Positions 36,830-53,473 of a DNA stretch of 64,000 bases are shown piece by piece (position 1 is the first letter of the stretch; the number at the start of each line of letters is the position of its first letter). The translations under genes and the position numbers were made by a program. The stretch lies in contig JAEUTZ010000010.1 of assembly GCA_016787725.1 (NCBI GenBank), forward strand, positions 1 to 64,000. The letters run 5' to 3'. Under the pieces are notes generated by a model, which saw only the letters and a list, made by a program, of their open reading frames with translations, was not told the DNA's origin and did no database searches. Source of the DNA: Cyclobacteriaceae bacterium. Lineage in GTDB: Bacteria; Bacteroidota; Bacteroidia; Cytophagales; Cyclobacteriaceae.

Positions 36830-36902
36830 TCCTTCATGAATTTATTCCAAAACCGGCCCGACTTCGTTGCCAGGAGCAACACAAATTACTACATTTGAAA
36901 AT

Positions 36903-39572
36903 ATGCCTTCTGTTGTTCCTGGATACGAATATGATATTTTTATTTCATACCGACATAAAGATAACCGGGGCACTGCAGGAGGCGTCAATAGCTCCGGGTT
37001 TCAGGCGGCCAATGGGTGGGTAACGGAGTTTGTAAGTGATCTCAGCAAGGAGTTGGAGAGCACTTTCAAAGAAGATATCTCTATTTACTTTGATTCCAAT
37101 CCGGACGATGGACTGCTGGAGACACATCATGTTGATAAAAGCCTGGAGGGAAAACTGAAGTCGGTCATCTTCATTCCTATTCTCTCCCAAATCTATTGTG
37201 ATCCACGATGTTATGCCTGGCAAAATGAATTCTGCGCATTCAACCGACTTGCCCAAACAGAACCGATAGGCAGGGACATTAAGCTCCGTAATGGAAATGT
37301 TGCCAGCCGGATTCTGCCAGTGATCATCCACCAACTCGATCACGATGATTTGAATCTGCTTGAGACTGAACTGAATTCCAAACTTCGCTCGATTGAATTT
37401 ATTTTCCGGTCTCCAGGCGTTAATAGACCGCTTCGCCCGGATGATTTACGGCAAGATAATGCAAGCAATCTGTTTTACCGGGATCAGATCAATAAGGTGG
37501 CAAATGCGATTAAGGAAATTATCCAGGCAATTAAAAATCCAGGCAGGTCTACGGACATGTATGATGCGATCGAGGCGGTAGACACGGATGCCCAGGCAGA
37601 AGCTAAAGTACAAACCGATAAGACGGTGCTGGCCAATTCGCTGGCGGTGCTCCCTTTCGTAAGCCTATCACACGATCCCAATCAGGAATACTTTGCAGAT
37701 GGCATCACCGAGAATATATTGATCCAGTTGGCTGGGAGTTCGAAACTCCGGGTGATCTCGCGCACTTCAGTGATGCGCTACAAAAAGACTACAAAATCAG
37801 CCCCCGAAATTGCGGCCGAACTCGCAGTCAAGTACATCCTGGAGGGGAGCGCACAGGCCCATGGCAACAAAGTGAGAATCAACGTTCAATTGATTGATGC
37901 TGTCAACGACCGCCCGATTTGGTCGAAAGTTTTCGTAGAGAGCATGGATGACATCTTTGAAATTCAAAACAGTGTTGCCGAAATAGTGGCCAAGGAGTTA
38001 CACACCTCCATCCAGGGTGGTTCTCTTGAACGGAAGAAGGAGCCGACAAAGAACCTGGAGGCCTACGATCTTTTCCTGAAGGGAAGACATGCTTTTAATC
38101 AATGGAGTGTGGATGGATATCGCACCGCTTCCGAATTCTTTAAACAAGCCATTGCCAAGGATCCCGAATTTCAGGAAGCTTATTCCTATTTGGCGAGTTC
38201 GTATTCGGCTCGCATGTCCTGGAATGGAGACCTTTCACCCGAAGAGGCCAAAATTCATATCGAAAAGTATTTGCAGGAAGCCTGGCAACGAGGTCCTACC
38301 GATAACGACTATTTGACAAAAGCCTTTGTTGAATTTTTCATCAATAAGAATTTTACTGCCTCCGAACAATATTTGGTACAGGCATTGGAACGGGGACCCA
38401 ACAATGCAAATGTGATGTACACGTATAGTTATCTCCTGAATGCACAAGGCCGGCATGATGAGGCATTGCTCATGGTAAGCAAGGCAAAGGCGATTGATCC
38501 ATTAACCGTGGCGTATTTCAATTATCAAATCATCAGTTTGTATTTGTTAAGCAGGCGGGAGGAAGCGCTACAGACTGTACAGGAAGCACTTCAATTGTAT
38601 CCTACGGTGCTTCGGTTATATGATTTTCTGGGCAGAATTTATGTTACCCTGGAGCGTTACCAGGATGCGGAAGAAGCGTTGGTATCGGGGTTGCGGATTT
38701 CCAAAATCAGACCACCCTCCATGTTGGCTTATTTGTTCCGGGCATATCTTGGCTTGAAGCAAGAGAACAAAGCCAAGGAGCTTCTTCATGAATTACTGAC
38801 CCGAAGTGAAGCCCGGGAAAAGGGGGTAAATATTTACCTGGTACATGCCTTTCATTCGATGAATGATAGTGCGTCTGCAAAACGATTCCTGTTAAAAGCA
38901 CATCAAACCAATGATATTGATCTTATCTGGTGGTCGGTGGATCCACTTTTATCGGAGTTGCGAAAGACAATTGACAATCAACGGAATCGAATCCCGGATT
39001 ATTCAGGTGCCGAAAGACACATCACCGAGTTGGTAGAAAACACGATGCCCAACCTTTCTTATCACAATAAGCAGCATGTGTATGATGTCCTGGCGGCAGC
39101 GGTACACATCGCGGAGCAGGAAAAGATTGACGGAAAAGATCTGCAACTTCTTCGGTTGGCTGCCTTATTTCATGATATTGGCTTTATTCATTCTGCAAAG
39201 AATCATGAGCAACGCGGGGCGGACATGGCCCGGGAAATCTTGCCCGGCTATGGATTACCGGAAGAAGACATTGATACCATCAGCAAAATGATTTTAGCTA
39301 CCCGGATACCCCAATCGCCCGCTACGCAACTGGAAAGGATTCTTTGTGATGCCGATTTGGATTATCTGGGCAGAGAAGACTTTTATGAAATTGGAAGCCG
39401 GTTGTTGGATGAATTGAAATCACAGGGTGTGGTTGAAACCGAGCGTGAGTGGAATCTTGTTCAAAAAACATTTCTGGAATCGCACCGATTTCATACTGCC
39501 TACAGCCGGGAACATCGTGAAAAGAAGAAGCAAGATCATGTGCAGGAGATCATTGCTAAATTTAAGCGCTAA
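36903..39572 (+). CDS. TIR - TolB - TPR - HD multidomain signalling protein
   Basis: 889 residues from ATG 36903 (MPSVVPGYEYDIFISYRH); a TTG 12 codons earlier is possible but the second TIR gene also starts MPS. Residues about 9-215: TIR domain with the box-1 YDIFISYRH and a candidate catalytic Glu in CYAWQNEFCAF. About 245-370: TolB-N/FlgO-like domain (LAVLPFVSLS, YFADGITENILI, YILEGSAQ), the same as the one fused to class III cyclases in alphaproteobacteria. About 390-700: TPRs. About 725-889: HD domain with His in YHNKQH, LFHDIGF and CDADLDYLG; this HD type occurs fused to PycTM effectors. No membrane segment. TIR domains can cleave NAD or make signalling nucleotides; HD domains hydrolyse phosphodiesters. 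Both activities in one chain is striking. Confidence 0.9.
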   Translation: MPSVVPGYEYDIFISYRHKDNRGTAGGVNSSGFQAANGWVTEFVSDLSKELESTFKEDISIYFDSNPDDGLLETHHVDKSLEGKLKSVIFIPILSQIYCDPRCYAWQNEFCAFNRLAQTEPIGRDIKLRNGNVASRILPVIIHQLDHDDLNLLETELNSKLRSIEFIFRSPGVNRPLRPDDLRQDNASNLFYRDQINKVANAIKEIIQAIKNPGRSTDMYDAIEAVDTDAQAEAKVQTDKTVLANSLAVLPFVSLSHDPNQEYFADGITENILIQLAGSSKLRVISRTSVMRYKKTTKSAPEIAAELAVKYILEGSAQAHGNKVRINVQLIDAVNDRPIWSKVFVESMDDIFEIQNSVAEIVAKELHTSIQGGSLERKKEPTKNLEAYDLFLKGRHAFNQWSVDGYRTASEFFKQAIAKDPEFQEAYSYLASSYSARMSWNGDLSPEEAKIHIEKYLQEAWQRGPTDNDYLTKAFVEFFINKNFTASEQYLVQALERGPNNANVMYTYSYLLNAQGRHDEALLMVSKAKAIDPLTVAYFNYQIISLYLLSRREEALQTVQEALQLYPTVLRLYDFLGRIYVTLERYQDAEEALVSGLRISKIRPPSMLAYLFRAYLGLKQENKAKELLHELLTRSEAREKGVNIYLVHAFHSMNDSASAKRFLLKAHQTNDIDLIWWSVDPLLSELRKTIDNQRNRIPDYSGAERHITELVENTMPNLSYHNKQHVYDVLAAAVHIAEQEKIDGKDLQLLRLAALFHDIGFIHSAKNHEQRGADMAREILPGYGLPEEDIDTISKMILATRIPQSPATQLERILCDADLDYLGREDFYEIGSRLLDELKSQGVVETEREWNLVQKTFLESHRFHTAYSREHREKKKQDHVQEIIAKFKR

Positions 39573-39601: not shown

Positions 39602-41560
39602 TTAAGCCGTTTGTAAAACCGGTTTATGAATTTCACTTTCCACAAAATACATATCCACTTCACCAATGTTCTTGGCTGAAATCTTACCCCGGTAGATGCA
39701 TTGATAATATTCGCTGATAAGGTGATAAGTGGTAGCGGAGATGTTGACTTTGCCGGGCTCTCCATTCGATTCCATGCGACTTGCTATATTGACGGTATCC
39801 CCCCAGATGTCATAGGCGTATTTCTTTTTACCCACCACACCCGCCACCACAGGACCGGTATGAATTCCAATCCGCAATTCCCAACCCGGTAATCCTGAAT
39901 TGGTTTTTTCGCGCTGTCGCTTTTCCATATACGCTTGCATAGCCAGGGCAGCTTTCACGGCATCCAGGGGATGAGAGTCGTTGGTGGTAGGAATGCCCCC
40001 CGCACACATGTAGGCATCGCCAATGGTTTTAATTTTCTCGAGGTTGTACTTGCTCATGATTTCATCAAATGCCATGAAGTACTCATTCAGCTCGGCTACT
40101 AATTGAATGGGTGTTAGCTTCCCTGCGATTGATGAAAATCCCTTAAAGTCGGTAAAGAGAACAGTTACATTGTCGTAAAACCGGGTCTTCGCATATCCAT
40201 TTGATTCCAGCTCACGGGCCGTTTCTTCGGGTAAAATGTTCAGCAACAACTCCTGGGATCGATCGCGTTCGTTCTTGATTATTTTATTTGTTTTCCGAAC
40301 ATACTGGTAGCGATTATAGAATCCGGCAACTACCAGGATCAATAGAAATCCGGTTATCACAGCTGCATAGTTCAAAATTTTCTGCCGTTGTATGGTGGCA
40401 TCCTTCAATGCCTGATCCGCTGTTAACAAACTGATTTCGGCTTCTTTTTTGCCCAAATCGGAATTGAATTGTGATTGCTGAATTTTCTTATCGTTGTCAA
40501 CATTGTAAAGGGTATCCTTAATGCTACTATATAATGTATCATAGGCATAAGCTTTCTTAAAATTGCCGATTTTGGCATAGGCCCGGGCTAATCCATCATA
40601 GGCATCTTTAAGCGGAACCCGGGCACCAATTTCCGAAGCGAGATCTTCTGCCTGCTGATAGAAGGGTATGGCAATCGAATAGTTCTTCATTTTCTTATGC
40701 GTGGTAGCAATGCCAATCAGGCTTTGGGCCATTTCTAATTTGGCATCTTGAGCTTTTGCAATTTCCAACGCTTTATTTTGGTAGGCCAATGCTTGCTTAA
40801 AATCACCCTGATCTGCATAAATTTCACCAAGCAGGTTAAGTGGAAAGCATGCGTCCACTGTACCCCGATAGATTTCCAATGATTCATCGAGATACAAAAT
40901 GGCGGAATCATACCGTTGCTTCTTTTTATAGATCTCCCCGATGTTCATGGCAACGATACCTTCACCGTCTTCATAGTTAATACTGCGGAAAATGGGCCGT
41001 GCCATTGAGTAATACTCGAGGGCTTTGTTCTGCGTGTCAGGGTTGTTCGCGTAAATGTTTCCGATGCCGTTCATGGCCGTTCCGATGCGCAACGAGTCTT
41101 TCAATTCTTCGGAAATTTTAAGCGAGCGCAGGAAAAAGTCGATCGCTACGGCATCTTTTCCACCGCCATTAAAGTAGGCAGACCCCAGACTACTTAATAT
41201 ATTGGCAACGCCTACCTGATAGCCAATGGAATCGAAGAGTGTAAGTGATCGCTCAAACTGGCTAATGGCCTCCGGGTAATCGGCTTTGTAAAAATATCCA
41301 AAGCCAATGGCTTTGTAGGAGTAGGCTTCTCCTTTTATGAAAGCCAGTTGATGGGCGAGTTGTTGACTTTGTTGAGCATACCGGATCGCCTGATCCGGGT
41401 CTTTAGCCAGGTACTCCGAACTAAGTTTTATGAGTTTATTAACTTTCAGGCTATCATCTGGTTGGCCGGCAATCTCCAGTCGGAGTTGTTCAATTTCCGC
41501 ACTTTGTGAGTAGCTGGACCAGGACAACAGGAGAAAGAAAAGAATGAAAACGCGATCCAC
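39602..41560 (-). CDS. Class III adenylate cyclase with TPR sensor and one membrane helix
   Basis: 652 residues from GTG 41560. A signal peptide or N-terminal anchor (about 1-18) precedes TPR repeats (about 30-350), a helix, one membrane span (about 392-412, ILNYAAVITGFLLILVVAGFY) and a cytosolic class III cyclase domain (about 460-640). Catalytic residues look complete: metal Asp in LFTDFKGFS and KTIGDAYM, the Lys/Asp adenine-selecting pair in IKTIGD and YDIWGD, and the transition-state Asn/Arg in NIASRM. I therefore predict cAMP. The TPR part would lie outside the inner membrane, so it may sense envelope ligands. Transcribed leftward, tail-to-tail with the TIR-HD gene (29-base gap). Confidence 0.92.
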   Translation of the reverse strand: MDRVFILFFLLLSWSSYSQSAEIEQLRLEIAGQPDDSLKVNKLIKLSSEYLAKDPDQAIRYAQQSQQLAHQLAFIKGEAYSYKAIGFGYFYKADYPEAISQFERSLTLFDSIGYQVGVANILSSLGSAYFNGGGKDAVAIDFFLRSLKISEELKDSLRIGTAMNGIGNIYANNPDTQNKALEYYSMARPIFRSINYEDGEGIVAMNIGEIYKKKQRYDSAILYLDESLEIYRGTVDACFPLNLLGEIYADQGDFKQALAYQNKALEIAKAQDAKLEMAQSLIGIATTHKKMKNYSIAIPFYQQAEDLASEIGARVPLKDAYDGLARAYAKIGNFKKAYAYDTLYSSIKDTLYNVDNDKKIQQSQFNSDLGKKEAEISLLTADQALKDATIQRQKILNYAAVITGFLLILVVAGFYNRYQYVRKTNKIIKNERDRSQELLLNILPEETARELESNGYAKTRFYDNVTVLFTDFKGFSSIAGKLTPIQLVAELNEYFMAFDEIMSKYNLEKIKTIGDAYMCAGGIPTTNDSHPLDAVKAALAMQAYMEKRQREKTNSGLPGWELRIGIHTGPVVAGVVGKKKYAYDIWGDTVNIASRMESNGEPGKVNISATTYHLISEYYQCIYRGKISAKNIGEVDMYFVESEIHKPVLQTA

Positions 41561-41672: not shown

Positions 41673-44600
41673 TTATTCCTTATAAATTTTCAGCGTTTGT
41701 ATTCCTGTAGATTGGGTAACTTTGATCAGGTAGAGTCCCCGCTCGAATTCCGTAAAATCAATTTCCACCACACCGGGTTGCCACCTTGCATGCACCGGGT
41801 AGGAGCGCCCGATCCGGTCAACGATCATTAGCTGGGTAGAAGTGAGTTTCTCAGAAATTCCGGAAATGGTTACCCGATCGGTGACGGGGTTGGGAAAAGC
41901 AATTACTTCCAACACATTTTCCGGTTCAATAGGAGCATCGCTCTGAGTAAGGTAGTATGTTGATTCACCTTCTCGCACGGAAGTACCCGAACGATTCGCT
42001 CCCGGCTTGATGGCAATTTGTTGCGCTACCCAGAAGTCTCGTTTCGTTGCAATTGCGATCTTATTGCCTGTTTCCCCAGCCTCAGCTTGCGTATTAATTG
42101 CCATCATATTCGAAGTAAGCCCTTGCTGATGGTTGGGGCTGTCATAAACTTCCGTATACCCTGCAGGAGGTGTCCAGGTCGCATCGGTTTTATTCGTAAA
42201 GAATGCCATCACCAATGCATTGCAATGAGTGGTTGTTATTGTGGGTGCAATGGCATTGTAATCCTTATTACCAGTTGCTCCATTGTGAGCGTCAATAGGA
42301 TTATTTGGGTCGGCACCTGTTACCCTGGAAATACCCATTGACCATTTCGGGCTATTGGAGAGATTAAAAGTATAAGATCCGGGTTCATTATTTTCCGCGA
42401 TTTTATAGTAGGTGGCGAGGCCAACCTGATTGCCCTGATTATCAGCCCGAATGAAATTCCAGCCGGAAGGCGGAGTAATCTGGGTGCCGGTACCTTTTTC
42501 AAAAGTCAATCCAACGATCAACAAATCACCAACTTCCGTACCAACAGGCTTAAATACCGTGGGTATACTGGAACCACCGCCCAGAGCTACCTCATGACCG
42601 GCAATAATTGCAGGTGTCGGGCAAACAATGGTAATGGTAGTCGTGCTGAAAGATGGGAAATAATTGCTGTTGCCTGCATAGTTGGCCGTAACTTCATAGT
42701 TGCCGATTTCGACAGGAGCTGATCCGCCTGAATAAGTATAGGTTACAGAAGGGCTTAACACATCCGTTTCTCCCCCTACACCATAGGCAAAACCGGTAGC
42801 CTCTTTGGGATTGCCATCGTAATCAAAGGTTCCGCCTGTAAGACTTACGGTAGAGTTAGCCTTGGTAATGGTGAACTGTGCCGTGTTGTAAGTAACAACA
42901 TAATTGTCTAATACGCTGGCCGGATTTAATAGAGCACTAATCATGTAGGGTGATCCGATTACATTTTCGCCTGTTGTGCGCGAATACAATGCAACTATAC
43001 CATCAGATTGCAGAAATCCTGAGAGAGTTCCGGTAAGTGTCGGATCATCGCTTCCGTAGATTTTAGTTTTATTATTTGGTGTAACGCTGGCCACTCGCTT
43101 GCCGATCGTAAAAGTAGCCGTGTTATAGGTAATCGAATAGTTCGTCAAGGCCCCGACCGGACTTAATGCAGCGCTGATCGTGTACAGACCACCTGCTTGT
43201 TCACCTGAAGTTCTTGAATAGGTTGCAGTTATTCCATCAGCTTCCAGGAAGCCTGTGAGAATACCTTGCAGAGCTACATCAGCATCTCCATACGTCTTGC
43301 CAGCAGGATTTGGAGTTACGGAAGCTACTTTGGTATTTACGGAAAGTCCACCCTGGGTTCCGGTTTCAATCCGGTAGTTCGAGGGTGTTATCAGATTCAC
43401 CGTAGGAACAACGTGATAAGATCCAACCGGGATTAACCCTGTGCTTTCAAAGGTCGCTTCCGCTTTTAAGAGTGAATAGTCGATCGATTGAACTACGTTG
43501 GCGGCAGTTTCCGCCACGGTCACCTTCGCTGGATTCCCCGTTTCAAAGAATTCCGTAGTGTAGGCAAATCCTTCGAAAGTGGAAGTGTACTCCGGAGTTG
43601 GATCGCCATAGATGATTTCATTCGGAGTAGCGGCCGTAGACACCGTTAAAGCGGCCGGAGTAATTTCCAGCGTACCGGCTTCATATGAAACAATAAAGTT
43701 GTTCGATAAAAATGTACCCGGAACAATGATATGCGGAGCTCCTGGTCCGGTAACATGGGTTCCACTTACCAGATTGATGGAGTAAAACTCAAGAATATAA
43801 TCCTCTTCATTGTCGATATCTGCCCCGAAATCGTAATACTCTGTGCCGTTCGATTCCACTTCTTCAGCCGGTTCTAAATCCTTCTCCCCAAAGAGAATTA
43901 ACATATTATCCAATTCAGGGGCATCGGCTTCCGGGCCTTCTGTACCATTGATTAGGGTGCGACCATTGATGAGCGTGCGACCATTGATTAACGTACGACC
44001 ATTGATTAATGTGCGACCGTTAATCAGAGTACGACCATTGATCAGGGTTCGACCGTTGATCAGGGTCCGGCCGTTAATCAGGGTTCTGCCGTTCAACTCC
44101 GGATTAACCAGAGTCTGGTTCAATTCATCGGTTGGTGTGGCTTTATAATTTTCAAAAGAACTCATGGGCACATCGAATACCGAGTTGATCAGGGTTCTCC
44201 CGTTAATCAAGGTACGACCATTGATGAGGGTACGACCATTAATCAAAGTCCGGCCACTGACCATGAAACTCAGGTTGTCTGCATCTGAATTAATCAGCGT
44301 TCTGCCGTTAAACTGTTGTGTGTCGAAGATGGCCAATGGCAGGGCATCATCACTGGCGGATTTGGCGCGTTCCAGGTCCTGACGGTAGGCATTTTCAATG
44401 GCCGCCTTCAATCCAGGAACATCTGTAATTTCAGATTCATCTGCTTCTTCAAAGTTGATTTCATAATCGAGTGCATCACTGATGGATTGACCGTATTCCA
44501 ATTGTAAATTGACGGGCTTGAGGGTGATTGGCAAAGCCTCCACCGTAACGGAACCAGCCCCATAGGGGCCATACGTATTATCAATACCATTGTATACCAG

Positions 44601-47600
44601 GGTTCCATTCGATTGGATAACGCCAACATAATCATAGAGTTCGCGGAAAATAATATTGGTTTCCGAATGAACCGGGATGATATCGTAATCACCAACCGGT
44701 GCAAGGTCGCCACCGGAAGTAGTAATGGAACTTGCGAACGCAAGAGGAACTAACGGTCCGGTTGCAGATCCCAGGGTTAATCCAACTTGCTCCAGGGTTA
44801 AACTAGCGGGTTGCCAGGTTTGATTGCCGGATTCATCATCAGCTAATGTTAATACGGTTGCACCATAGGGGAGTGCTGCTTGACCATACTTTTTAGTTAT
44901 ATCATTTGCCTGGATCGCCACAATTTGCTTTGGAATATTAAGGATCGGAACAGATTCCGAGTCACCACCGTCCCCGGCATTGGTCATGGCAATATTTTTT
45001 ACCTGGACAGGGGGATTTCCTTCAAACGGGGGAATGGTTACTTCGAGGTTGGTGGTTTCTTCATTGTAGAATACATCCTCCTCGTTCAATTCATTTCCAC
45101 GGAGGAATACTTTTGAGTCGTAATAAAAGTTTGTCCCCTCAATAATCAATGTGAATTCTTCAACACCAACATTGGCGCCATCCGGAAGCAACAGCCGGGT
45201 TATTTTTGGTTTGGGTGTGGCGAGGGTAAGCAAGGCCGCATCGCCACGCACCAATCCGTAGCCGGAATTGATATCAAAACCTTCACCATGTAAATCCTGC
45301 GCGGTGGTTTGCATCACCTTCCGAATGTCATCCGGAGAACTTCCGATAAATTCTGTATCCCAACTGGCACCATCTTTATGAGTAGGGGCTGTACCCGCGT
45401 AATATTTTGTACGGGCTTGCATAATCAAAGCTGCCAATCCAGCAGCATGTGGAGCCGCGGCCGATGTACCAAAGAAATTGAACTTACCATCACCTTCGAT
45501 GTCCGTACCATTCAGAAACACCGAAGTGTTTACTCCATTGGGAGCAACAAAGTCGGGTTTGGTTCTGATTTCAGAATCGGTTTCAGTGCCACCACGGGAG
45601 GAAAATGTTGCCACCGTGTTGGGTTCCGTGTTTGCCGGTACCGGAGTATAGTTAAACGTTGAGGTATTGCTATACAAAATAGCACCCACCGTCATGGCTC
45701 CGGTAGCGTTGGCTTGTCCAACGATGGTGGAGCTCCCAGTAAAGTACTCATTCACCACCAGCTTGTCGCCACGGAAAATCACATACTTGAAATTGATATC
45801 GGAACTGCCATGGGCCCTCACGATCATGATATCGGTATGGATGGTGGTATTGGCCGGAACTGAAAAGGATAGAATTTCGATTGGATCACCACCGGTATTA
45901 TTCCGGTTGAATCCAAAGAGTTCCGCCCCCTGAAAGTTCACCAGGTAGATGTCGAGATCATTGGCTGAGCCGGACAGAATTTCACCGAACGAACCGATCG
46001 AGTACACAGGATCATCCCATTGTAATACAATCGTATACGTGGTGGGTTCTGCACCAGGGCCAAGGGTTATGTTCTGGAGGATGTCTCCACTTCCAAAGTT
46101 ATGGGCTTGCTGACCGGGTAAATTTGCAGGGGCATTTAGAGGACTAAAATCAGAAGTGTACGATTTGCTGCCAAAGTTTCCGGCTGCAGTGAAATACGAA
46201 ACTCCATCTTCACTTACATCATTAACGGCCTTTGCAATTCGACCATCGGTATAAAAAGGCTCGGTGATATAAGTAATGTCATCGACAATGATATCGCAGT
46301 CATTTTCAGGTAGCTTCAAGTCCCGGATTCCCTTGGCAAAGTCCCCAGCAGTAATAAAACCGGTCCGGAAATATAACTCGGCCCCAGGGGCGACATCATG
46401 AATAATTTGCAGCATCGCGCGGCCTTCATCCGTTCCCTGGCCGTAGCGGGAGGGGAGATCCTTAACCAGGTTGACTTCATTCAAATAACCAGAGGGATTT
46501 AACGCCCCGGGCAAATCTCCATCCTTAATATCCAGCGTGGCCGGGTTGTTGGGCAATGTATTATAACTGTCTGATAACACACCAATCTTTATACCGGTAC
46601 CATCCAGGTCATATCCTAACCGAACCAGATTCGATCGCATGACTTCATCACCTTGTGAGGCAATGGCACTTCGCACCGGAGGAATAGCGGGCCGTACATA
46701 ATTGATGTATTCATCATAGGTATTCAGCACATCCAGATTTTCAACGGGAACAAATCCGGTAATTATCAACGAGCCTGCCAATTCGCTAATGTCATCATCA
46801 GTTTCAAAACCAAGCGTATTCAAGATTGCTTGCAGGTCTGAAAGTTGAGCGCTTGTTAATTCGGAGAGTACAATTATTTCTACCAGAACCCTGTTGTCGC
46901 TAATGAAGAATAATTCGTTGGTATTAACTGCCCCGCCTTGCTGTACGATCGTGTAGAGCATGGTCAATTCGGATCCGATCAGATCATTTACTTTACCAGC
47001 CAGGGGTGCACAAACCCCGAATTGCTGGCGCGCGTTCACGGTAATTGTAAAGGTGGTGGTACTGGTGCATCCGGAGGCACTGACTGCGGTAACCGTGATT
47101 TGATCGCCATGTTCGGCAGTAAAGGATGAAGGTAATTGAACCTCACCCTGTTGCCGACTCGTGAACGAAAGGGTATTGCCTTCAGCGGAAGCATAGAGCG
47201 TTAAATCAATAAGAGTGGTATTTCCGCCAAGCTCCGTGCTGCAAACTTCTTCATTGTTGATCGAAATAACCGGAGTTGGATTTACTGTCACGGTAACATC
47301 ATCTGTAGCAGGGCATCCGTTGGTCCCTACTACAGTAACTGAATAGGTAGTGGTAGTTATTGGGGCAACAGAAATTGATTCGGTTGTTTCTCCGGTACTC
47401 CAGGAGTAAGTATAGGGACCCGTACCAGCTGAAACTACTGCTGTGAGTGTGGCTCCACTTACTTCGGCACAAACATTCACATCCGCGCCAGCGCTAACCG
47501 TAGGCGGTGTCGTGTTCAGATTCACCAAGACAACATCGGTTGCGCTGCAAGCTCCTGAGGCGACCGTCAGTGTATATGTTCCTGCGGCATTAACGGTAGG

Positions 47601-48842
47601 GGTTGCGGTATTCGCACCCGATACAATGCTTCCTCCGTTGCTGGCTACCCAGCTATAGGTTACCCCAGGCGTGGTGGACGAACCATTGAGCTGTATTGTG
47701 GTGGCTACACAACTAATCGTCTTATCGGCCCCCGCATTTGCATTTGGTGTTGTGCAAGTTTGAAAAGGAGCAAAGACTACAGTAACACCACTTTGAATAT
47801 TAACCTGCGTGCCACTCCAAAGGGCACCGGTGATGTCTGAACTTCCGGTTCCAGAGCCAACGTTAATAGCGGCATAAGGTGCCCATACTGTACCCAACCA
47901 TTTTGATTTAGAACCGGTAGACCCATTGGCAATATCGAATGCATATTTTGTACTACCCAGGCCAGTTCCATGTACTTCAGTAAAAATGCGATTGGCGCTA
48001 CCGCCATTGATCAAGTTTACACTCAGCTTTCCAAGCCTGACATTGTCATGAACATAAAGCTGAATGGTGCCGGTTGGATTATTTTCGAAGTCGAAGACGA
48101 AGGTATTGTTGTTCTTATTATCAATCAGGTGCAGTACATAGACACCGGTACCTTTAAATGTGAGGGTTTGGTTGCCCGAAAGTTTAATGTCATCATACGC
48201 CCCCGGAGTAATGGTGCGGGTAGTGGTAATATCCGCCATTTGTGGATAGGCAGGAAATGAAGTTATAGGCGGGAGCGTAGGAAATTGAGGGAGCGTTGGT
48301 GTTCCGGTAATTCTACCTCCACTGGGGACAGGTCCTGAATATGTGGTTCCTGCAGGATGGGTGATGGTGCCTGTCACGCTTCCACCACCAATTACAATTC
48401 TTCCGTTAACATCAATATTTCCATTCATAGTGGCATTAGACCCAACGGAAAGAATAGTTCCAGAAACTGCAGGGGTGTTCGAAGCCGCAATAGTACCAAC
48501 CACACTATTGCTGTTGGCCAGAACGATCGTTCCCTTACTAAAGATGTTACTACTGAAAGAAGCCGTGCCTGTAGTTTTAACAAGTTTTAAACTGCCCACA
48601 GACCCTCCCGTAATCTGAGAGGAACTTCCGATCTGCACAGCATATCCCGGTGAGCTGCAAGAAGCTGTTCCAGGTCCTCCCGCACCTGAAAACAGAACAA
48701 AATCAGACATCTGAAGCTGCTGCCCTGGTTGAGACCGGACTATACCCGGCAGGACGGAAAGCATAAAGATGAATGCTAAAACCTGCCTATTGTGAAGCGT
48801 ACGGCCTAAACCACCTGAAGCTTCAACGCTAATTTTTTCCAT
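41673..48842 (-). CDS. Giant T9SS surface subtilase with 13 GRTLIN hexapeptides and MBG domains
   Basis: 2389 residues. The N-terminus is long and basic before the hydrophobic core (LAFIFMLSVLPGIVRS). Then a repetitive beta-rich domain (about 45-365), PKD/Ig-like domains (about 365-600) and a subtilase domain (about 735-1180) with Asp in IGVLSDSYN and Ser in FFGTSAAAPHAAG. The usual HGTHVAG histidine motif is absent; EGRAMLQIIHDVAPGA stands in its place. Next come MBG-type beta domains; one is interrupted at about 1513-1632 by thirteen perfect GRTLIN hexads. More MBG repeats follow (about 1690-2010), another beta domain, and a type A T9SS tail (about 2307-2389: FPNPVTDRVTIS, RGLYLIKV, TLKIYKE). 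It should be secreted and attached to the cell surface. Confidence 0.92.
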   Translation of the reverse strand: MEKISVEASGGLGRTLHNRQVLAFIFMLSVLPGIVRSQPGQQLQMSDFVLFSGAGGPGTASCSSPGYAVQIGSSSQITGGSVGSLKLVKTTGTASFSSNIFSKGTIVLANSNSVVGTIAASNTPAVSGTILSVGSNATMNGNIDVNGRIVIGGGSVTGTITHPAGTTYSGPVPSGGRITGTPTLPQFPTLPPITSFPAYPQMADITTTRTITPGAYDDIKLSGNQTLTFKGTGVYVLHLIDNKNNNTFVFDFENNPTGTIQLYVHDNVRLGKLSVNLINGGSANRIFTEVHGTGLGSTKYAFDIANGSTGSKSKWLGTVWAPYAAINVGSGTGSSDITGALWSGTQVNIQSGVTVVFAPFQTCTTPNANAGADKTISCVATTIQLNGSSTTPGVTYSWVASNGGSIVSGANTATPTVNAAGTYTLTVASGACSATDVVLVNLNTTPPTVSAGADVNVCAEVSGATLTAVVSAGTGPYTYSWSTGETTESISVAPITTTTYSVTVVGTNGCPATDDVTVTVNPTPVISINNEEVCSTELGGNTTLIDLTLYASAEGNTLSFTSRQQGEVQLPSSFTAEHGDQITVTAVSASGCTSTTTFTITVNARQQFGVCAPLAGKVNDLIGSELTMLYTIVQQGGAVNTNELFFISDNRVLVEIIVLSELTSAQLSDLQAILNTLGFETDDDISELAGSLIITGFVPVENLDVLNTYDEYINYVRPAIPPVRSAIASQGDEVMRSNLVRLGYDLDGTGIKIGVLSDSYNTLPNNPATLDIKDGDLPGALNPSGYLNEVNLVKDLPSRYGQGTDEGRAMLQIIHDVAPGAELYFRTGFITAGDFAKGIRDLKLPENDCDIIVDDITYITEPFYTDGRIAKAVNDVSEDGVSYFTAAGNFGSKSYTSDFSPLNAPANLPGQQAHNFGSGDILQNITLGPGAEPTTYTIVLQWDDPVYSIGSFGEILSGSANDLDIYLVNFQGAELFGFNRNNTGGDPIEILSFSVPANTTIHTDIMIVRAHGSSDINFKYVIFRGDKLVVNEYFTGSSTIVGQANATGAMTVGAILYSNTSTFNYTPVPANTEPNTVATFSSRGGTETDSEIRTKPDFVAPNGVNTSVFLNGTDIEGDGKFNFFGTSAAAPHAAGLAALIMQARTKYYAGTAPTHKDGASWDTEFIGSSPDDIRKVMQTTAQDLHGEGFDINSGYGLVRGDAALLTLATPKPKITRLLLPDGANVGVEEFTLIIEGTNFYYDSKVFLRGNELNEEDVFYNEETTNLEVTIPPFEGNPPVQVKNIAMTNAGDGGDSESVPILNIPKQIVAIQANDITKKYGQAALPYGATVLTLADDESGNQTWQPASLTLEQVGLTLGSATGPLVPLAFASSITTSGGDLAPVGDYDIIPVHSETNIIFRELYDYVGVIQSNGTLVYNGIDNTYGPYGAGSVTVEALPITLKPVNLQLEYGQSISDALDYEINFEEADESEITDVPGLKAAIENAYRQDLERAKSASDDALPLAIFDTQQFNGRTLINSDADNLSFMVSGRTLINGRTLINGRTLINGRTLINSVFDVPMSSFENYKATPTDELNQTLVNPELNGRTLINGRTLINGRTLINGRTLINGRTLINGRTLINGRTLINGRTLINGTEGPEADAPELDNMLILFGEKDLEPAEEVESNGTEYYDFGADIDNEEDYILEFYSINLVSGTHVTGPGAPHIIVPGTFLSNNFIVSYEAGTLEITPAALTVSTAATPNEIIYGDPTPEYTSTFEGFAYTTEFFETGNPAKVTVAETAANVVQSIDYSLLKAEATFESTGLIPVGSYHVVPTVNLITPSNYRIETGTQGGLSVNTKVASVTPNPAGKTYGDADVALQGILTGFLEADGITATYSRTSGEQAGGLYTISAALSPVGALTNYSITYNTATFTIGKRVASVTPNNKTKIYGSDDPTLTGTLSGFLQSDGIVALYSRTTGENVIGSPYMISALLNPASVLDNYVVTYNTAQFTITKANSTVSLTGGTFDYDGNPKEATGFAYGVGGETDVLSPSVTYTYSGGSAPVEIGNYEVTANYAGNSNYFPSFSTTTITIVCPTPAIIAGHEVALGGGSSIPTVFKPVGTEVGDLLIVGLTFEKGTGTQITPPSGWNFIRADNQGNQVGLATYYKIAENNEPGSYTFNLSNSPKWSMGISRVTGADPNNPIDAHNGATGNKDYNAIAPTITTTHCNALVMAFFTNKTDATWTPPAGYTEVYDSPNHQQGLTSNMMAINTQAEAGETGNKIAIATKRDFWVAQQIAIKPGANRSGTSVREGESTYYLTQSDAPIEPENVLEVIAFPNPVTDRVTISGISEKLTSTQLMIVDRIGRSYPVHARWQPGVVEIDFTEFERGLYLIKVTQSTGIQTLKIYKE
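43947..44090 (-). repeat. Eight tandem 18-base units encoding GRTLIN
   Basis: Eight adjacent in-frame 18-base units, residues about 1585-1632 of the giant subtilase. All eight encode GRTLIN exactly, yet all eight differ in DNA: Arg is CGC, CGT, CGA, CGG or AGA, and Leu is CTA, CTC, CTG or TTA. The protein, not the DNA, is being conserved. Confidence 0.97.
44184..44255 (-). repeat. Four tandem 18-base units encoding GRTLIN
   Basis: Residues about 1530-1553 of the same protein, preceded by a Ser. All four units differ in DNA and are identical in protein. A 31-residue spacer (1554-1584) separates them from the eight-unit block. Confidence 0.96.
44289..44306 (-). repeat. Single isolated GRTLIN unit
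   Basis: Residues about 1513-1518, in the context QQFNGRTLINSDAD. It brings the total to 13 units and shows the motif can stand alone. Confidence 0.93.
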
Positions 48843-49106: not shown

Positions 49107-49670
49107 TCACAACATGATAAATAGTAGGAAAATCAACACGCTGAAGCTAAATCCAAACATAAAGACTTGGTAGGCATAGCTTAATAATCGGTATTTACGC
49201 GTTAGGATGAGCCCCTGGTTGTAGATGTCGATGGTCATGTTTTCATGAATGTCGGTCCGGGATTGCAAGAGTATGTTCATTTTCTCCAGGTACTCCTTTT
49301 GACTAAAACGGGCGATCACTCCAAAGAAAAGCAAGCTTGATTTTTCCTCTTTGTCTGGAATCCGCGAAGCGGAAATGACCTTGGGACGGGCCGCCTGAAT
49401 GGCGAACATAGCCGAGATCAGGCACGAGAGCACGATCAATGCGATGGGAACGATGATGTTGGATTTGTAAAGATCCAATTGATTGGCGACTGCTCCATAG
49501 CCGGTAATGGCAATGATGGAGGAAATGATCATGGCATTGATGCTAATGACGATGTTTGCCTTGTTATCGGCAATTTGGATCAGGTTGTTTTGATTCCGGT
49601 ACGTTACCCGGAAGAGCGTTTCGGTTTCCCGTCCACTTTTCTTTTTCTTGGGTGGCTTTTCAGGTTCCAT
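49107..49670 (-). CDS. Pycsar-type membrane effector (PycTM/DUF5706-like)
   Basis: 188 residues from ATG 49670; a TTG at 49700 would add 10 residues. After a Lys/Pro-rich start comes TLFRVTYRNQNNLIQIADNK, the signature I associate with PycTM, then a hydrophobic helix pair (ANIVISINAMIISSIIAI; NIIVPIALIVLSCLISAMFA), a soluble central part (FGVIARFSQKEYLEKM), and a C-terminal span (VFMFGFSFSVLIFLLFIM). In Pycsar phage defence a pyrimidine cyclase makes cCMP or cUMP, which opens PycTM to damage the membrane. No cyclase is adjacent; the nearest is at 39602-41560 and looks adenine-specific. It is divergent from the 358-residue gene (101 bases between starts), followed by the TIR gene. Confidence 0.87.
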   Translation of the reverse strand: MEPEKPPKKKKSGRETETLFRVTYRNQNNLIQIADNKANIVISINAMIISSIIAITGYGAVANQLDLYKSNIIVPIALIVLSCLISAMFAIQAARPKVISASRIPDKEEKSSLLFFGVIARFSQKEYLEKMNILLQSRTDIHENMTIDIYNQGLILTRKYRLLSYAYQVFMFGFSFSVLIFLLFIML

Positions 49671-49771
49671 GCAAGGTTGAATATTTTCGAATGTACTCAA
49701 ATAATTGGTAGAGCGGATGGACGCTAAATATTCTGAAGGGTTTTAGTATCTTTAAGTAGCTCCATTCCAAA

Positions 49772-50848
49772 ATGCCACGCTCGCACACAGCATCGATCAA
49801 TCAGTTTATCTTGCTCCTCGTTTTTGCAGGAATTCAATCCTACACTTGCCGGGCCCAAAAACTTTTTGAAAGAGATTCCCCTCTCAAAATTCAATTGAGC
49901 GGACAAGTCGAGGTGCTGTTGCAAGATCGGGGCGAGGATACCCAATATCATGAGATCCAACTTACCTATACCGATTCCAGTGTAAGCAACCAACCGGTCT
50001 CGATTCCCATACAAGTCCGGGTACGCGGGAATTTCAGGCGCTTAAAAAGTAATTGTGATTTTCCGCCACTCTTGTTGAATTTTTCCGGCACGACAACCAA
50101 AGGAACGCTGTTCGAAAGTCAGAATAAGGTCAAGTTGGTGATGCCTTGTCAGGGCGATAAATATGTAGTCCGTGAGTATTTGACCTATCAGCTCTACAAC
50201 CGGCTTACCCCAAAGAGTTTTAAAGCGCGATTAGTATCTGTTGAATTACAAGATCCAAACCTGAAACCAAAGCGGGCTGCATTCTTTTATGGTATCTTAT
50301 TGGAAGAAGAGGAGCAAGTAGCGGAGCGAAATGGCATGATCATGCTTGAACGACAATTGGTGCGTCCGGAACAAACCCAAAAGGAAGACTTTCTGACCAT
50401 GGCTGTTTTTGAATACCTGATCGGGAACACGGATTGGTCGGTGCAGTATCGCCAAAATGTGAAGCTGATCGCAAAAGATACATTGTCCATTCCCATTACG
50501 GTACCCTACGATTTTGACCATGCCGGCATCGTTTCTGCACCCTACGCGCTGCCGGCCTTCGAGCTGGGATTGAATTCAACCCGGGAAAGAAGATACCGGG
50601 GATATTGTATTCAGGATATGAAACAATTTGAACCTGTTGTCGCTAAATTTAATGAGGCCCGGGACGATTTTTATCGGATTTATTCCGAATGTCCTTACCT
50701 GGAATTAGGATATGTAAAGACCACGTTAAAGTATTTGGACGACTTCTATAAAACGATTAACGATCCGAAACGGATAAAATACCAATTTCAATACCCTTGC
50801 GATCCAAGCGGAACAGGTAATGTGGTGATCAAAGGGTTGAAGCAGTAG
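49772..50848 (+). CDS. Unknown secreted protein encoded with the TIR gene
   Basis: 358 residues with a signal peptide (about 1-28, ending CRAQ). No certain family. Visible motifs are VRVRGNFRRLKSNCDFPP near residue 75, NKVKLVMPCQGDKYVVREYL, EYLIGNTDWSVQYRQNVKL and VPYDFDHAGIV near residue 250. The last two faintly recall the HipA/CotH class of secretory kinases, where Asp residues of this kind hold the catalytic and metal positions; I would not assign that without structural comparison. It starts 101 bases from the divergent PycTM gene and is followed after 36 bases by the second TIR gene, so those two are probably one transcript. Confidence 0.75.
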   Translation: MPRSHTASINQFILLLVFAGIQSYTCRAQKLFERDSPLKIQLSGQVEVLLQDRGEDTQYHEIQLTYTDSSVSNQPVSIPIQVRVRGNFRRLKSNCDFPPLLLNFSGTTTKGTLFESQNKVKLVMPCQGDKYVVREYLTYQLYNRLTPKSFKARLVSVELQDPNLKPKRAAFFYGILLEEEEQVAERNGMIMLERQLVRPEQTQKEDFLTMAVFEYLIGNTDWSVQYRQNVKLIAKDTLSIPITVPYDFDHAGIVSAPYALPAFELGLNSTRERRYRGYCIQDMKQFEPVVAKFNEARDDFYRIYSECPYLELGYVKTTLKYLDDFYKTINDPKRIKYQFQYPCDPSGTGNVVIKGLKQ

Positions 50849-50884
50849 ACCAATAATTAACCTGCATTTTGATTAACTTTGATT

Positions 50885-53473
50885 ATGCCCTCCTTGTTGC
50901 CAGGATACGAATACGACATTTTCATATCGTACCGCCACAACGACAATCGATCCGGGTGGGTAACTGATTTTGTTAACCACCTAAAAGAGGAGTTAGCGGC
51001 CACCATCAAGGAGCCTGTCTCGGTGTATTATGATTCCAATCCGCATGACGGTCTGTTGGAGATTCATCATGTAGATAAAAGCCTGGAGGGTAAATTGCGA
51101 TGCTTCATTTTCATTCCCATCATTTCCCACACGTACTGCGATACCAAGAGCTTTGCCTGGAACAATGAGTTTCTAGCTTTTTGCAAATTGGCGAAGCAAG
51201 ATGCCCTGGGGCTCCATGTGAAATTACCGAATCGCAATGTTACCAGCCGAATTCTACCGGTTCAGATTCACGACCTTGATCCGAGTGATCAATTACTTTT
51301 TGAGCGAGAAGCGGAAAGTCCATTGCGCGCAATCGAATTTATATTCCGTTCACCCGGGGTGAACCGACCCTTGACGCCTCAGGATACCCGACTGGATAAT
51401 ACAAATCGAACTTTTTACCGCGATCAAATCAATAAGATCGCGAATGCGATTAATCACCTATTCCTGGCCGTGAACCAGCAACCGAAAGCTGAAATTAAAG
51501 TGGAGTTACAGCAAACCTTAGATTCAGATCCGAAACCAGAAGGAATCTCGTGGTTATGGAGTGAAGTGAGGCGGAGAAATGTTGGGCGGGCTGCGCTTAC
51601 CTATACCATTGTGGCATTGGTGCTCCATCAGTTTCTAATATTTATAGCGCCATTCATTAAGTTGGAGTCCCGGTTTGTTGAGTTGGTTGCCTGGATGTTG
51701 CTAGGTGGATTTCCGCTCGCCACCTTGTTTGCTTGGTTTTATGAGGTCAGTCCACATGGTTTGATCCGCACAAATTCTCCTCAAGCCACCGAAAATCCAT
51801 TTCCGCCAGAACGAAAAAAACCATTTACTGGAAGGCCTCTCATTCTGCTTTTAATAATCGTCATGATCAGTCAGTTTGTTTATCTCAATTATTTGAAGGA
51901 CACGGGTATTATTCCAACGGTGGATGAGGAGGGAAACAGAGTAATTTCAATCGCGGTTATACCGTTTGAGAATCGGGGTGGAGATCAATATTTCGCAGCA
52001 GGAATCACAGAAGATATAATCAATCGATTAATTATTATCAAACAATTTCGGGTCACCAATAAAAGGCGTACTCAGGAATTTGCCGGAAGTCTTCTTCCCA
52101 TTGAAGATATTGCCAAACGTTTAAATGTCGCGTTGATCCTGACGGGGAGCATCGCACAGCAGGGTGATAAAATTGCAGTGCGCGCCCAACTCATTGATCA
52201 GGATGACACGTACCTGTGGGGGAATACGTTTCAGCATACTTCACAGGACATTATGGCCGTTCAGTCGGAGATTGCGCAACGGATTGCTGATCAATTGAAG
52301 ATCCAACTCAGTGAGAGTGAGAAACGTCAATTACACAAGAAAGCAACCACAAATCCTACCGCGTATGATTTATACTTGCGTGGTCGCAGTTTGTACTATG
52401 AATATCAAAGCAAGTCGAATGATTCTGCGGTGGTACTTTTTAAACAAGCCATTGATCTTGATCCTAATTATGCCCGGGCCTGGGCAGGGTTGAGTGATGC
52501 TTATGCCCAGCGGTATGGTCGGTTTGTGCAAGCGTATTTTTGGACGGATTCAAGTTTAGTGGCTGGAAAGCGTGCTATTGAGTTAGATTCAAATCTTTCC
52601 GAGGCGTACAAGGCCTTAGCCACCGCGTATGATTACCGTGAGGACTATGAAAGTGGTCATCCATTATTGTTAAAGGCGGTGGCATTGGATCCAACGGATG
52701 ATCGGGCAGTTGGAAATTTGGGTACGAATTATTTACTCCGGGGGGATTTACCCACCGCCTTACGGTGGCAAAAGAAGTCGGCCGGGCTGAATCCCACTAA
52801 TTGGATTCCGTACCAATTAATTGGTTGGATCTATCGATTACTGGGCGATTTGGAGAATGCGGAAGCATGGTTTAAGAAATCCCTGGCTGCAGATAAAGGA
52901 TCCACCCGATACGATACCTATGAACTTTTAGCGTATACGCTGGTATCGCTTGACCGGAATCAGGAAGCGTTGGATCTGATACCGAAGGTACTTGAAATCG
53001 GGAATGATACGCGTGTGTTTGAAACAGCGGGCCTGATTGCACACTTTGCCGGAGACCGGGTAAATGCCAAGAAGTATTTTCAACAAGCTATTGAAACCAA
53101 CACTATGTATCGGGAGGACCATTACACAGCCAGTCCGATCGGCTTGGGTCAGCTCTTGCTCGAAGAAGGCGATCGGGTAGAAGCAGAGGTCTACTTAAAC
53201 CATGCCCTGGAAAATAATTTATTTGAGGTAAACAATGGTTCAAAAAGCTTTGAACCTCCATTTTACCTGGCGGCCATCTATGCAATTAAAGGCAATCGTA
53301 CTAAATCATTGGAATGGTTGCACCGGGCTATTGAGATGCATTGGGTTGATTATGCTAAATTTTATTATGGACCTTACTTTCGACTGTACAAAAGTGATCC
53401 CGAGTTTTTATCACTCATCAACAAAGTGAAAGAAAATGTCCAATCCATGCGGAAATCTATATCAGAGAATTAA
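50885..53473 (+). CDS. TIR - membrane - TolB - TPR protein
   Basis: 863 residues from ATG 50885 (MPSLLPGYEYDIFISYRH); a TTG at 50879 is possible. Residues about 7-205: TIR domain, closely similar to the 36903 gene, with candidate catalytic Glu in SFAWNNEFLAF. Three hydrophobic helices lie at about 240-262, 270-290 and 318-338. About 360-480: TolB-N/FlgO-like domain (AVIPFENRG, YFAAGITEDII, ILTGSIAQQG, TYLWGNTFQ). About 490-840: ten or so TPRs. It lacks the HD domain of its relative, and the TIR would be cytosolic with TPRs on the outer side or, with another topology, the same side. The layout equals the CHD-TM-TolB-TPR cyclases of alphaproteobacteria with TIR in place of the cyclase. Confidence 0.9.
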   Translation: MPSLLPGYEYDIFISYRHNDNRSGWVTDFVNHLKEELAATIKEPVSVYYDSNPHDGLLEIHHVDKSLEGKLRCFIFIPIISHTYCDTKSFAWNNEFLAFCKLAKQDALGLHVKLPNRNVTSRILPVQIHDLDPSDQLLFEREAESPLRAIEFIFRSPGVNRPLTPQDTRLDNTNRTFYRDQINKIANAINHLFLAVNQQPKAEIKVELQQTLDSDPKPEGISWLWSEVRRRNVGRAALTYTIVALVLHQFLIFIAPFIKLESRFVELVAWMLLGGFPLATLFAWFYEVSPHGLIRTNSPQATENPFPPERKKPFTGRPLILLLIIVMISQFVYLNYLKDTGIIPTVDEEGNRVISIAVIPFENRGGDQYFAAGITEDIINRLIIIKQFRVTNKRRTQEFAGSLLPIEDIAKRLNVALILTGSIAQQGDKIAVRAQLIDQDDTYLWGNTFQHTSQDIMAVQSEIAQRIADQLKIQLSESEKRQLHKKATTNPTAYDLYLRGRSLYYEYQSKSNDSAVVLFKQAIDLDPNYARAWAGLSDAYAQRYGRFVQAYFWTDSSLVAGKRAIELDSNLSEAYKALATAYDYREDYESGHPLLLKAVALDPTDDRAVGNLGTNYLLRGDLPTALRWQKKSAGLNPTNWIPYQLIGWIYRLLGDLENAEAWFKKSLAADKGSTRYDTYELLAYTLVSLDRNQEALDLIPKVLEIGNDTRVFETAGLIAHFAGDRVNAKKYFQQAIETNTMYREDHYTASPIGLGQLLLEEGDRVEAEVYLNHALENNLFEVNNGSKSFEPPFYLAAIYAIKGNRTKSLEWLHRAIEMHWVDYAKFYYGPYFRLYKSDPEFLSLINKVKENVQSMRKSISEN

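Follow-up and report, generated by a model that had tools for sequence, protein, structure and literature searches.

The receptors of RRNPPA quorum-sensing systems have a TPR domain, the repeats of the yeast alpha-factor have processing spacers, and subtilases autoprocess after their propeptide. We know of no described input for TPR sensor proteins. A report on the RRNPPA group describes tandem pheromone propeptides, in 1 to 4 copies, that are cut by extracellular proteases (PMC11343458), and another describes MFalpha1, the yeast alpha-factor gene, as carrying identical peptide repeats with differing synonymous codons (PMC5850478). A residue rule for the hexapeptide repeats of the left-handed beta-helix (LbH; PF00132) is quoted in PMC12081914, and repeats that are kept between species yet vary inside proteins are a general theme treated in PMC5120217.

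In this study, we analysed a subtilase gene with thirteen GRTLIN hexapeptides that lies in a stretch of 64,000 nucleotides, hereafter the window, from a Cyclobacteriaceae bacterium. Searches of open-licence PMC papers found no paper on this repeat and no described subtilase whose array is uniform and specific to its lineage. Together with the database searches, they agree with the original prediction, made from the DNA alone, which had placed the repeat in no named family.

Results

Array gene and domain structure

The features of the array gene were located as follows.

41673..48842, minus strand: T9SS-type subtilase carrying the array, 2389 aa (Pfam and TIGR profile matches)
41679..41897, minus strand: T9SS C-terminal sorting domain, residues 2316-2388 (TIGR04183)
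43635..44534, minus strand: array domain, an MBG-like domain split by a long unit-bearing insert (three alignments; the extent is our reading)
43947..44090, minus strand: block B, eight GRTLIN units, residues 1585-1632 (exact match; tandem array also found by TRF)
44103..44120, minus strand: degenerate unit NQTLVN, residues 1575-1580 (sequence)
44184..44255, minus strand: block A, four GRTLIN units, residues 1530-1553 (exact match)
44289..44306, minus strand: first GRTLIN unit, residues 1513-1518 (exact match)
45363..46682, minus strand: protease core that tracks the array type, residues about 721-1160 (sliding identity, partial Mantel test)

A direct count gave thirteen exact GRTLIN units arranged as 1 + 4 + 8 in this giant subtilase, with 13/13 DNA copies distinct, as had been predicted. 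Within the blocks the units are contiguous, without intervening spacers that hold processing sites. Pfam matches were Peptidase_S8 (8.1e-15), MBG_2 (9.5e-17), and Por_Secre_tail (8.9e-7). The Peptidase_S8 profile scored 55.3 bits against a cut-off of 21.8, which places the protein among the S8 subtilases, and the C-terminus scored 30.1 bits on TIGR04183 (cut-off 23, 3.5e-7), which marks it as T9SS cargo. Among 26 array-domain members, nine matched MBG_2 weakly (best 1.9e-4) and the window member did not match; the C-flank of the array matched MBG arrays of other genomes. On these comparisons, the N- and C-flanks look like two halves of one MBG domain. The predicted subtilase with an MBG-like domain around the array is supported by the Pfam and flank profile matches.

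Codon diversity of the units

The original prediction had stressed the contrast between identical protein and different DNA. The contrast is real, but its DNA half is unremarkable: 1000 codon redraws with the gene's own usage gave 12.9 distinct copies of the 13, and hence the different DNA copies of GRTLIN are ordinary synonymous saturation and nothing special. The mean pairwise difference between units in the window was 4.50 nt, against 4.69±0.25 nt from the codon-usage redraws. Neighbouring units in the window were somewhat more similar than in random order (3.67 vs 4.51 nt, P 0.026 uncorrected), and this likeness is possibly a trace of old local duplication.

The codon-redraw test took in 24 of the 41 arrays, namely those in which one unit occurs five times or more, and in most of them codon choice resembled a random draw. 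All copies were distinct in 18 arrays and exact DNA duplicates occurred in the other six. Copies were closer in DNA than codon usage predicts (P<0.01) in three of the 24 (L005, L038, and L054). Only for the window (P 0.026) and L064 (P 0.004) were adjacent units closer than in random order at P<0.05. In these outliers, weak signs of earlier duplication remain. As the cause of the uniformity, recent slippage or gene conversion is unsupported, given the random-looking codons in most arrays. Selection for codon diversity is likewise unsupported, since distinct counts were at or below expectation; L025, the sole array more codon-diverse than expected (one-sided P about 0.03), is an outlier at chance frequency among 24.

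Selection on the units

The window and three other species (G027, G030, and G431) each carry 13 GRTLIN units in an identical 1 + 4 + 8 layout. In each of the six pairs among them, 0/78 unit residues differed and flank pN was 0.05-0.27. The pS was high in both the units (0.78-1.01) and the flanks (0.66-0.84); the non-zero unit pN in this comparison arises because some synonymous Leu or Arg codons are linked by paths of several steps. Across the four species, pairing units by position brought them no closer than shuffling did (P 0.17-0.96), which silent saturation would predict. In the close pair L012/L054, pS was 0.34 in the units and 0.32 in the flanks (54 codons of exact GRTLIN in L012). Because these values are nearly equal, the units in this pair changed by point mutation at the flank's silent rate, without sign of unit turnover; the same near-equality gives recent slippage or gene conversion no support.

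What lies beyond chance is therefore the uniform protein sequence of the units across species, not the variety of their DNA. Saturation plus purifying selection solves the paradox of identical protein and different DNA. Strong purifying selection on the units, as predicted, is supported within the window lineage, where thirteen units stayed unchanged and the flanks were altered. An alternative is that the unit has no function of its own and each array is an old expansion under general constraint. The three arrays that are more alike in DNA than predicted, the six with exact duplicates, and the likeness of adjacent units in the window and L064 would fit such a history. Against it stand zero unit residue changes in four species at near-saturated silent distance, over which the flanks changed, and we consider it extremely improbable.

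Distribution and unit types among relatives

The genome itself was counted in each survey of relatives. Among 58 relatives searched, six matched, one spuriously. The order survey (391 genomes) gave 21 matches, 15 near full length and six weak; the genus survey (63 genomes) gave eight, one of them partial; and the family survey (391 genomes) gave 70, many over the MBG flank only. In the genus to which G390 belongs, Algoriphagus according to contig names, 15 of 72 genomes matched at E <= 1e-40. Class-wide, a domain match at E <= 1e-8 was found in 18 of 395 sampled genomes, belonging to 15 of 196 genera. The 26 named loci are from Cyclobacteriaceae (Algoriphagus, Aquiflexum, Cognataquiflexum, Mariniradius, and MAGs) and one Chitinophagaceae MAG.

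By eye, the matches in G036 (L006) and G131 (L028) were considered spurious; L028 was excluded from the array counts, and L006 yielded no array. At about 1336-2175 of L006 (G036:C65, minus-strand count), some nine TCSPEM-like units follow one another in tandem in an ORF that looks transposase-like by eye. L199, in which the inspected stretch held no array, was left out of the counts. Viral contigs and phages were searched and held no relative of the array. The plasmid search gave two Staphylococcus epidermidis matches; the one designated H2 was taken as a chance match to repetitive DNA, because the matching frame is full of stops and out of the annotated-gene frame.

The units are lineage-specific: GRTLIN, GRNIIN, GKALYN, AKTLFN, GRAFVN, IKRLAN, and GKRAVN occur in different lineages, as do SRALVN or SRAIVN with an inserted Y or R and the mixed form GK[AP][FY][LI]N. 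Class-wide, further forms were ARALVN, GRPLVN, GKAIVN, GKGLVN, GKRSVN, AKVVTN, PRVITN, and GIPLVN, the seven-residue units GSRGIAN and GGRALAN, and one eight-residue form; in some of these relatives copies of RGTALVN are dispersed and not tandem. Within a lineage, the two-block anatomy hardly changes. Eight near-uniform unit types in all were seen on a tree of 41 arrays built from the flanks only. In it, GRTLIN is common to three branches of a 31-row clade, with degenerate arrays nested inside, and the remaining types lie on branches of their own, some of them placed with long branches.

The Algoriphagus-type clade is degenerate, with several different units per protein. Arg stood at position 2 in 172 of 176 block-B units from 22 Algoriphagus-type arrays. 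The final Asn cannot be counted in this set, because the units were extracted by it and the count would be circular, and alignments were used instead: in a 19-row alignment it never varies at eight block-B positions, and in a 26-row alignment it never varies at seven of these and hardly does at the eighth. Exceptions to the conserved Asn are L211 (G957:C7), whose GRVVTS array is uniform and ends in Ser, and L207 (G958:C99), with the eight-residue unit.

The original prediction had held that no residue of the hexad is dispensable, and had named relatives that lack the repeats, or whose residues vary freely, as evidence against this. Relatives without repeats did not appear in the genus: at E <= 1e-30, seven of 62 genomes have the array subtilase, all seven carry the array, and no subtilase without one was found at that threshold. 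Freely varying residues are present in one clade, the Algoriphagus-type one, at positions 1, 3, 4, and 5. As a general statement the claim also fails because other lineages have different units.

Paralogues carry different units in G957 (PRVITN and GRVVTS) and in G958 (GKGLVN, QKGLVN, and another unit), and like units in four other genomes (G738, G906, G1042, and G1079). An organism-wide unit identity is contradicted by the unlike paralogues in two of these six genomes.

TPR receptor and other neighbouring genes

The following genes adjoin the array gene.

39602..41560, minus strand: downstream partner, 652 aa, with an N-terminal hydrophobic stretch, TPR, a TM stretch, and Guanylate_cyc (Pfam, synteny, co-occurrence)
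49772..50848, plus strand: CotH-like gene upstream, 358 aa (CotH 0.002, weak, below cut-off)

The downstream partner matched Guanylate_cyc (6.2e-55) and TPR_12 (6.3e-33) and has two hydrophobic stretches; in one Algoriphagus and the Chitinophagaceae MAG, Pfam shows a histidine-kinase output in the TPR receptor. Thirty-nine loci were examined, including L097, which was missed by the motif of our script and seen otherwise. L138, a duplicate of L073, was dropped, and five loci end within 1 kb. Of the 33 loci that extend 1 kb or more downstream of the array gene, 30 have as their next co-directional gene one that encodes a TPR transmembrane cyclase or histidine kinase, as identified by BLAST, by alignment or, for L140, by the printed ends. 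The three loci without an adjoining TPR gene are Aquiflexum lacus L075, G508 of the same genus, and Mariniradius L094. With a query from L095, a full-length receptor relative of 61-63% identity was found elsewhere in each of these genomes. The next full-length relatives were 41-43% identical in L075 and G508; in Mariniradius, the other receptor matches listed cover the kinase part only.

Class-wide, 14 array loci were fetched from 13 of the 17 other genomes, and the array gene had an S8 match in 14/14. In the 12 loci with room downstream, the TPR-cyclase gene lies downstream in nine and upstream in one; two have no TPR gene in the stretch fetched. In the genus, 6 of 62 genomes, all among the seven that carry the array, have a receptor orthologue at 56-100% identity, with the 56% line set by us; the match in G431, a fragment, is 58% identical. 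The remaining one of the seven, G030, is a MAG (78% complete) in which the contig stops at the array gene. Other receptor hits in the genus, at 36-47% identity, were counted as paralogues, and 10 of the 62 genomes had some hit. These surroundings point to what appears to be a conserved protease-array-receptor system.

Clusters of histidine-kinase genes were observed at G405:C55:34-109 kb, G508:C1:1.52-1.60 Mb, G245:C26 and C38, and, in the genome of the window, G000:C2:83.8-90.7 kb. Two Aquiflexum-type genomes each had about 20 histidine-kinase matches in clusters of related genes, and the array gene of G344 is itself surrounded by several related histidine-kinase genes.

The CotH-like gene also neighbours the array gene in the four other loci compared from the genus, and lies about 6 kb from it in Algoriphagus marinus L076. 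Phosphorylation of the units by a CotH kinase was set aside, as GKALYN has neither Ser nor Thr. A PycTM-type protein (Pycsar effector family, 1.2e-25) is encoded just upstream of the array gene (49107-49700, minus strand); its gene was not seen in the four same-genus loci compared. Two large proteins with a similar YDIFISYRH start, at 36867-39572 (plus strand) and 50879-53473 (plus strand), flank the system.

Unit type and the protease core

An S8 domain was found by BLAST in 19/19 array genes tested, a set that shares nine with the class-wide 14. For L131, Pfam lists no Peptidase_S8, and BLAST aligns its gene to the S8 core of the window over 479 residues at 49%. We compared gene ends with the middle, which comprises the propeptide-like region, the protease, and the array. 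Between the window and G020 (SRALVN), 543/800 end residues (0.68) and 544/1234 middle residues (0.44) were identical. The corresponding values were 547/788 and 1003/1362 for G027, which also carries GRTLIN, and 463/790 and 620/1275 for G034 (GKALYN). This mosaic suggests that in G020 the protease and the array were exchanged or diverged together.

Unit similarity was then compared with domain identities by partial Mantel tests. For these, we chose by hand the commonest unit form to represent each system and trimmed dispersed and seven-residue units to six positions. With receptor TPR and cyclase controlled, unit similarity correlated with S8 identity (partial r 0.58, 0/2000 permutations, n=19; r 0.42, P 0.027 in the 13-row set). 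The correlation with the receptor TPR domain was 0.16 given cyclase and S8 (P 0.06, n=19; 0.27, P 0.037, n=13) and 0.11 given S8 alone (P 0.14; 0.22, P 0.06 with 13 rows). TPR identity to the window was 0.66 for G020 (SRALVN) and 0.68 for G027 (GRTLIN). The unit type appears to track the protease domain more than the receptor; linkage in one gene may confound the S8-unit correlation. The signal of receptor-unit coevolution was strong with only the cyclase controlled (r 0.47) and weak once S8 was controlled.

Between same-unit species, identity along the gene was highest over the units together with the inter-block loop (0.96 for window-G027, 0.90 for G020-G422); between the window and G020 it was lowest in the stretch just before the units (0.12). 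This profile would suit arrays that pair with each other on neighbouring molecules or cells, so that all units must match, as would identity inside a protein combined with sharp difference between close relatives. Self-pairing of this kind sits poorly with the differing units of the G957 and G958 paralogues, even though paralogue units are alike in four other genomes, and appears very improbable.

A second subtilase with a short repeat

A further subtilase gene in the window also carries a short repeat.

53485-54816, minus strand: small S8 subtilase (S8 6.1e-26; I9 21.0 bits, just under cut-off)
about 54365-54417, minus strand: GRPIHQ x3 repeats of the small subtilase, between the propeptide-like part and the catalytic domain

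The three GRPIHQ copies have three different DNA sequences. A homologue of the small subtilase was found in 24 of 296 family genomes, and 23 loci, including that of the window, were readable. Two or three exact or near copies of an own peptide lie at this place in 16 of the 23, in some loci separated by a few residues; seven have no copies. The peptides vary across lineages (GQPIQQ, GRPIQQ, DEPIMM, RNPIHQ, GRPRMQ, and others), their DNA differences are mostly silent, and the unit ends in Gln in 15 of the 16 repeat-bearing loci. The unit sequences of the small and the large subtilase do not match each other. By analogy with other subtilases, the natural reading of the small-subtilase repeats would be repeated cleavage or inhibitory sites, and this lends weight to a like idea for the large array.

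One form of that idea is autoinhibition without any peptide signal, in which pseudo-substrate units would restrain the protease in cis until the stalk is bound or cut. It accords with the tracking of S8 by unit type, with the joint difference of protease and array in the G020 mosaic, and with the position of the small subtilases' repeats. Thirteen copies exceed what inhibition needs and the TPR receptor gene is left unexplained, which makes autoinhibition by itself distinctly unlikely.

Fold of the units

The original prediction had proposed that the units roughly fit the hexad rule of a left-handed beta-helix. We built an LbH hexad profile from 116 hexads of ten LbH proteins of the same genome. 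On it, 337 hexads of the family averaged 0.50 bits, against 6.58 bits for LbH hexads, and scored no better than their reordered residues (P 0.28); the single units INARTM and INARTI scored 3.8-4.0 bits. The family units do not follow the rule [LIV]-[GAED]-x2-[STAV]-x. The fixed LbH period of six, three units per turn, is broken by the seven- and eight-residue units of some relatives, and single-unit indels occur among the relatives. Covariation over three units was not significant (P 0.10-0.24), and DNA periodicity at lag 3 was slight (combined z -2.74 over 40 related, non-independent arrays); both tests were weak and a three-unit turn was rejected. At E up to 10, LbH_EIF2B matched 6 and Hexapep 4 of 26 members; the window member had no LbH-type profile match. 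One Algoriphagus array had weak NeuD/GlmU-type matches below cut-off, and a PDB profile search with the array gave a chance hit only. A left-handed beta-helix is thus not supported for the units, as the profile score, the variable unit length, and the single-unit indels all run against it. A solenoid of another kind is possible from the sequences.

Such a structural rod would be a beta-solenoid or a stack of beta-arcs with an Asn ladder at the bends, in which identical residues stack best. It would account for the invariant or nearly invariant final Asn of block-B units (19 and 26 members) and the alternation of small, charged, and hydrophobic positions, and the slight three-unit periodicity and the LbH_EIF2B, Hexapep, and NeuD/GlmU-type matches lean the same way. 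The low LbH score, the non-significant three-unit covariation, units of seven and eight residues, single-unit indels, and the inserted Y in SRALVN arrays are at odds with it, and it leaves the linkage to the protease and the receptor unexplained. A rod is, in our estimation, rather doubtful.

Discussion

The evidence from these sequences points to ligand or protease recognition, which the original prediction had offered as its second option. We give a probability of roughly 0.4 to the reading that the array consists of recognition-peptide repeats that are cut or bound by their own protease and read by the TPR receptor. In this reading, an exported subtilase would bear on its stalk a single short linear recognition sequence, repeated in tandem as the units. 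All of them would have to fit one and the same partner site, and this would force them to be identical. The site would most likely be the active-site cleft of the protease in cis, where the units would be cleaved or bound. A periplasmic TPR domain may then read the short peptides that are set free or exposed in this way, and this reading may switch the cyclase or kinase. The variation of unit length between lineages (six, seven, or eight residues) is as a linear motif allows.

In its fullest form, this would be a two-gene peptide signalling system of Bacteroidia, in which the protease excises its own lineage-specific peptides and a TPR transmembrane cyclase or kinase reads them. We hold the full system to be unlikely. 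Several observations count against both forms: the units follow one another without spacers or known processing sites; the arrangement in two blocks varies little within lineages, unlike that of typical peptide precursors; the Algoriphagus-type clade has several units per protein, and RGTALVN copies are dispersed; GRVVTS has no final Asn; and two class-wide loci with room downstream have no TPR gene in the stretch fetched. The weak tracking of unit type by the TPR domain, with S8 and cyclase controlled, also seems to speak against them, as does the sorting domain, which suggests delivery to the cell surface, whereas the TPR domain is probably periplasmic.

If recognition by protease and receptor is correct, the locus would represent a widespread, unnamed protease-peptide-receptor pair (18/395 genomes and 15/196 genera of the class). 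It would also hold a built-in record of specificity, with the recognition sequence written many times per protein, lineage by lineage, and would provide a testable prediction of the input of TPR sensor proteins. Even without signalling, the array is a clear natural case of repeats that are uniform in protein, nearly saturated at silent sites, and different wholesale between lineages.

Among known systems, the array shares with RRNPPA quorum sensing (Phr/Rap and kin) the repeated short peptides in an exported precursor, an extracellular protease as putative processing enzyme, and the adjoining gene for a receptor with a TPR domain. There, the propeptide has a dedicated short gene, whereas here the precursor is itself a protease, a 2389-aa protein with 13 copies. 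The RRNPPA receptor is cytoplasmic, whereas the receptor here is a predicted transmembrane cyclase or kinase. Like MFalpha1, the array consists of identical peptide repeats in different synonymous codons, the pattern of a multi-copy precursor; unlike MFalpha1, in which repeat number varies between strains, it has no spacers and its number is near-constant within lineages. It resembles LbH hexapeptide repeats (PF00132) in its period of six in most lineages, its small/hydrophobic pattern, and an Asn at a possible bend, but it departs from the residue rule, its period is not fixed at six, and the window protein has no match. The flanks resemble the two halves of MBG_2 (PF18676), to which the array adds a long unit-bearing insert between them. 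With S8 subtilases that have an I9 propeptide, the array protein shares the S8 domain, and its small neighbour shares S8 together with a sub-cut-off I9.
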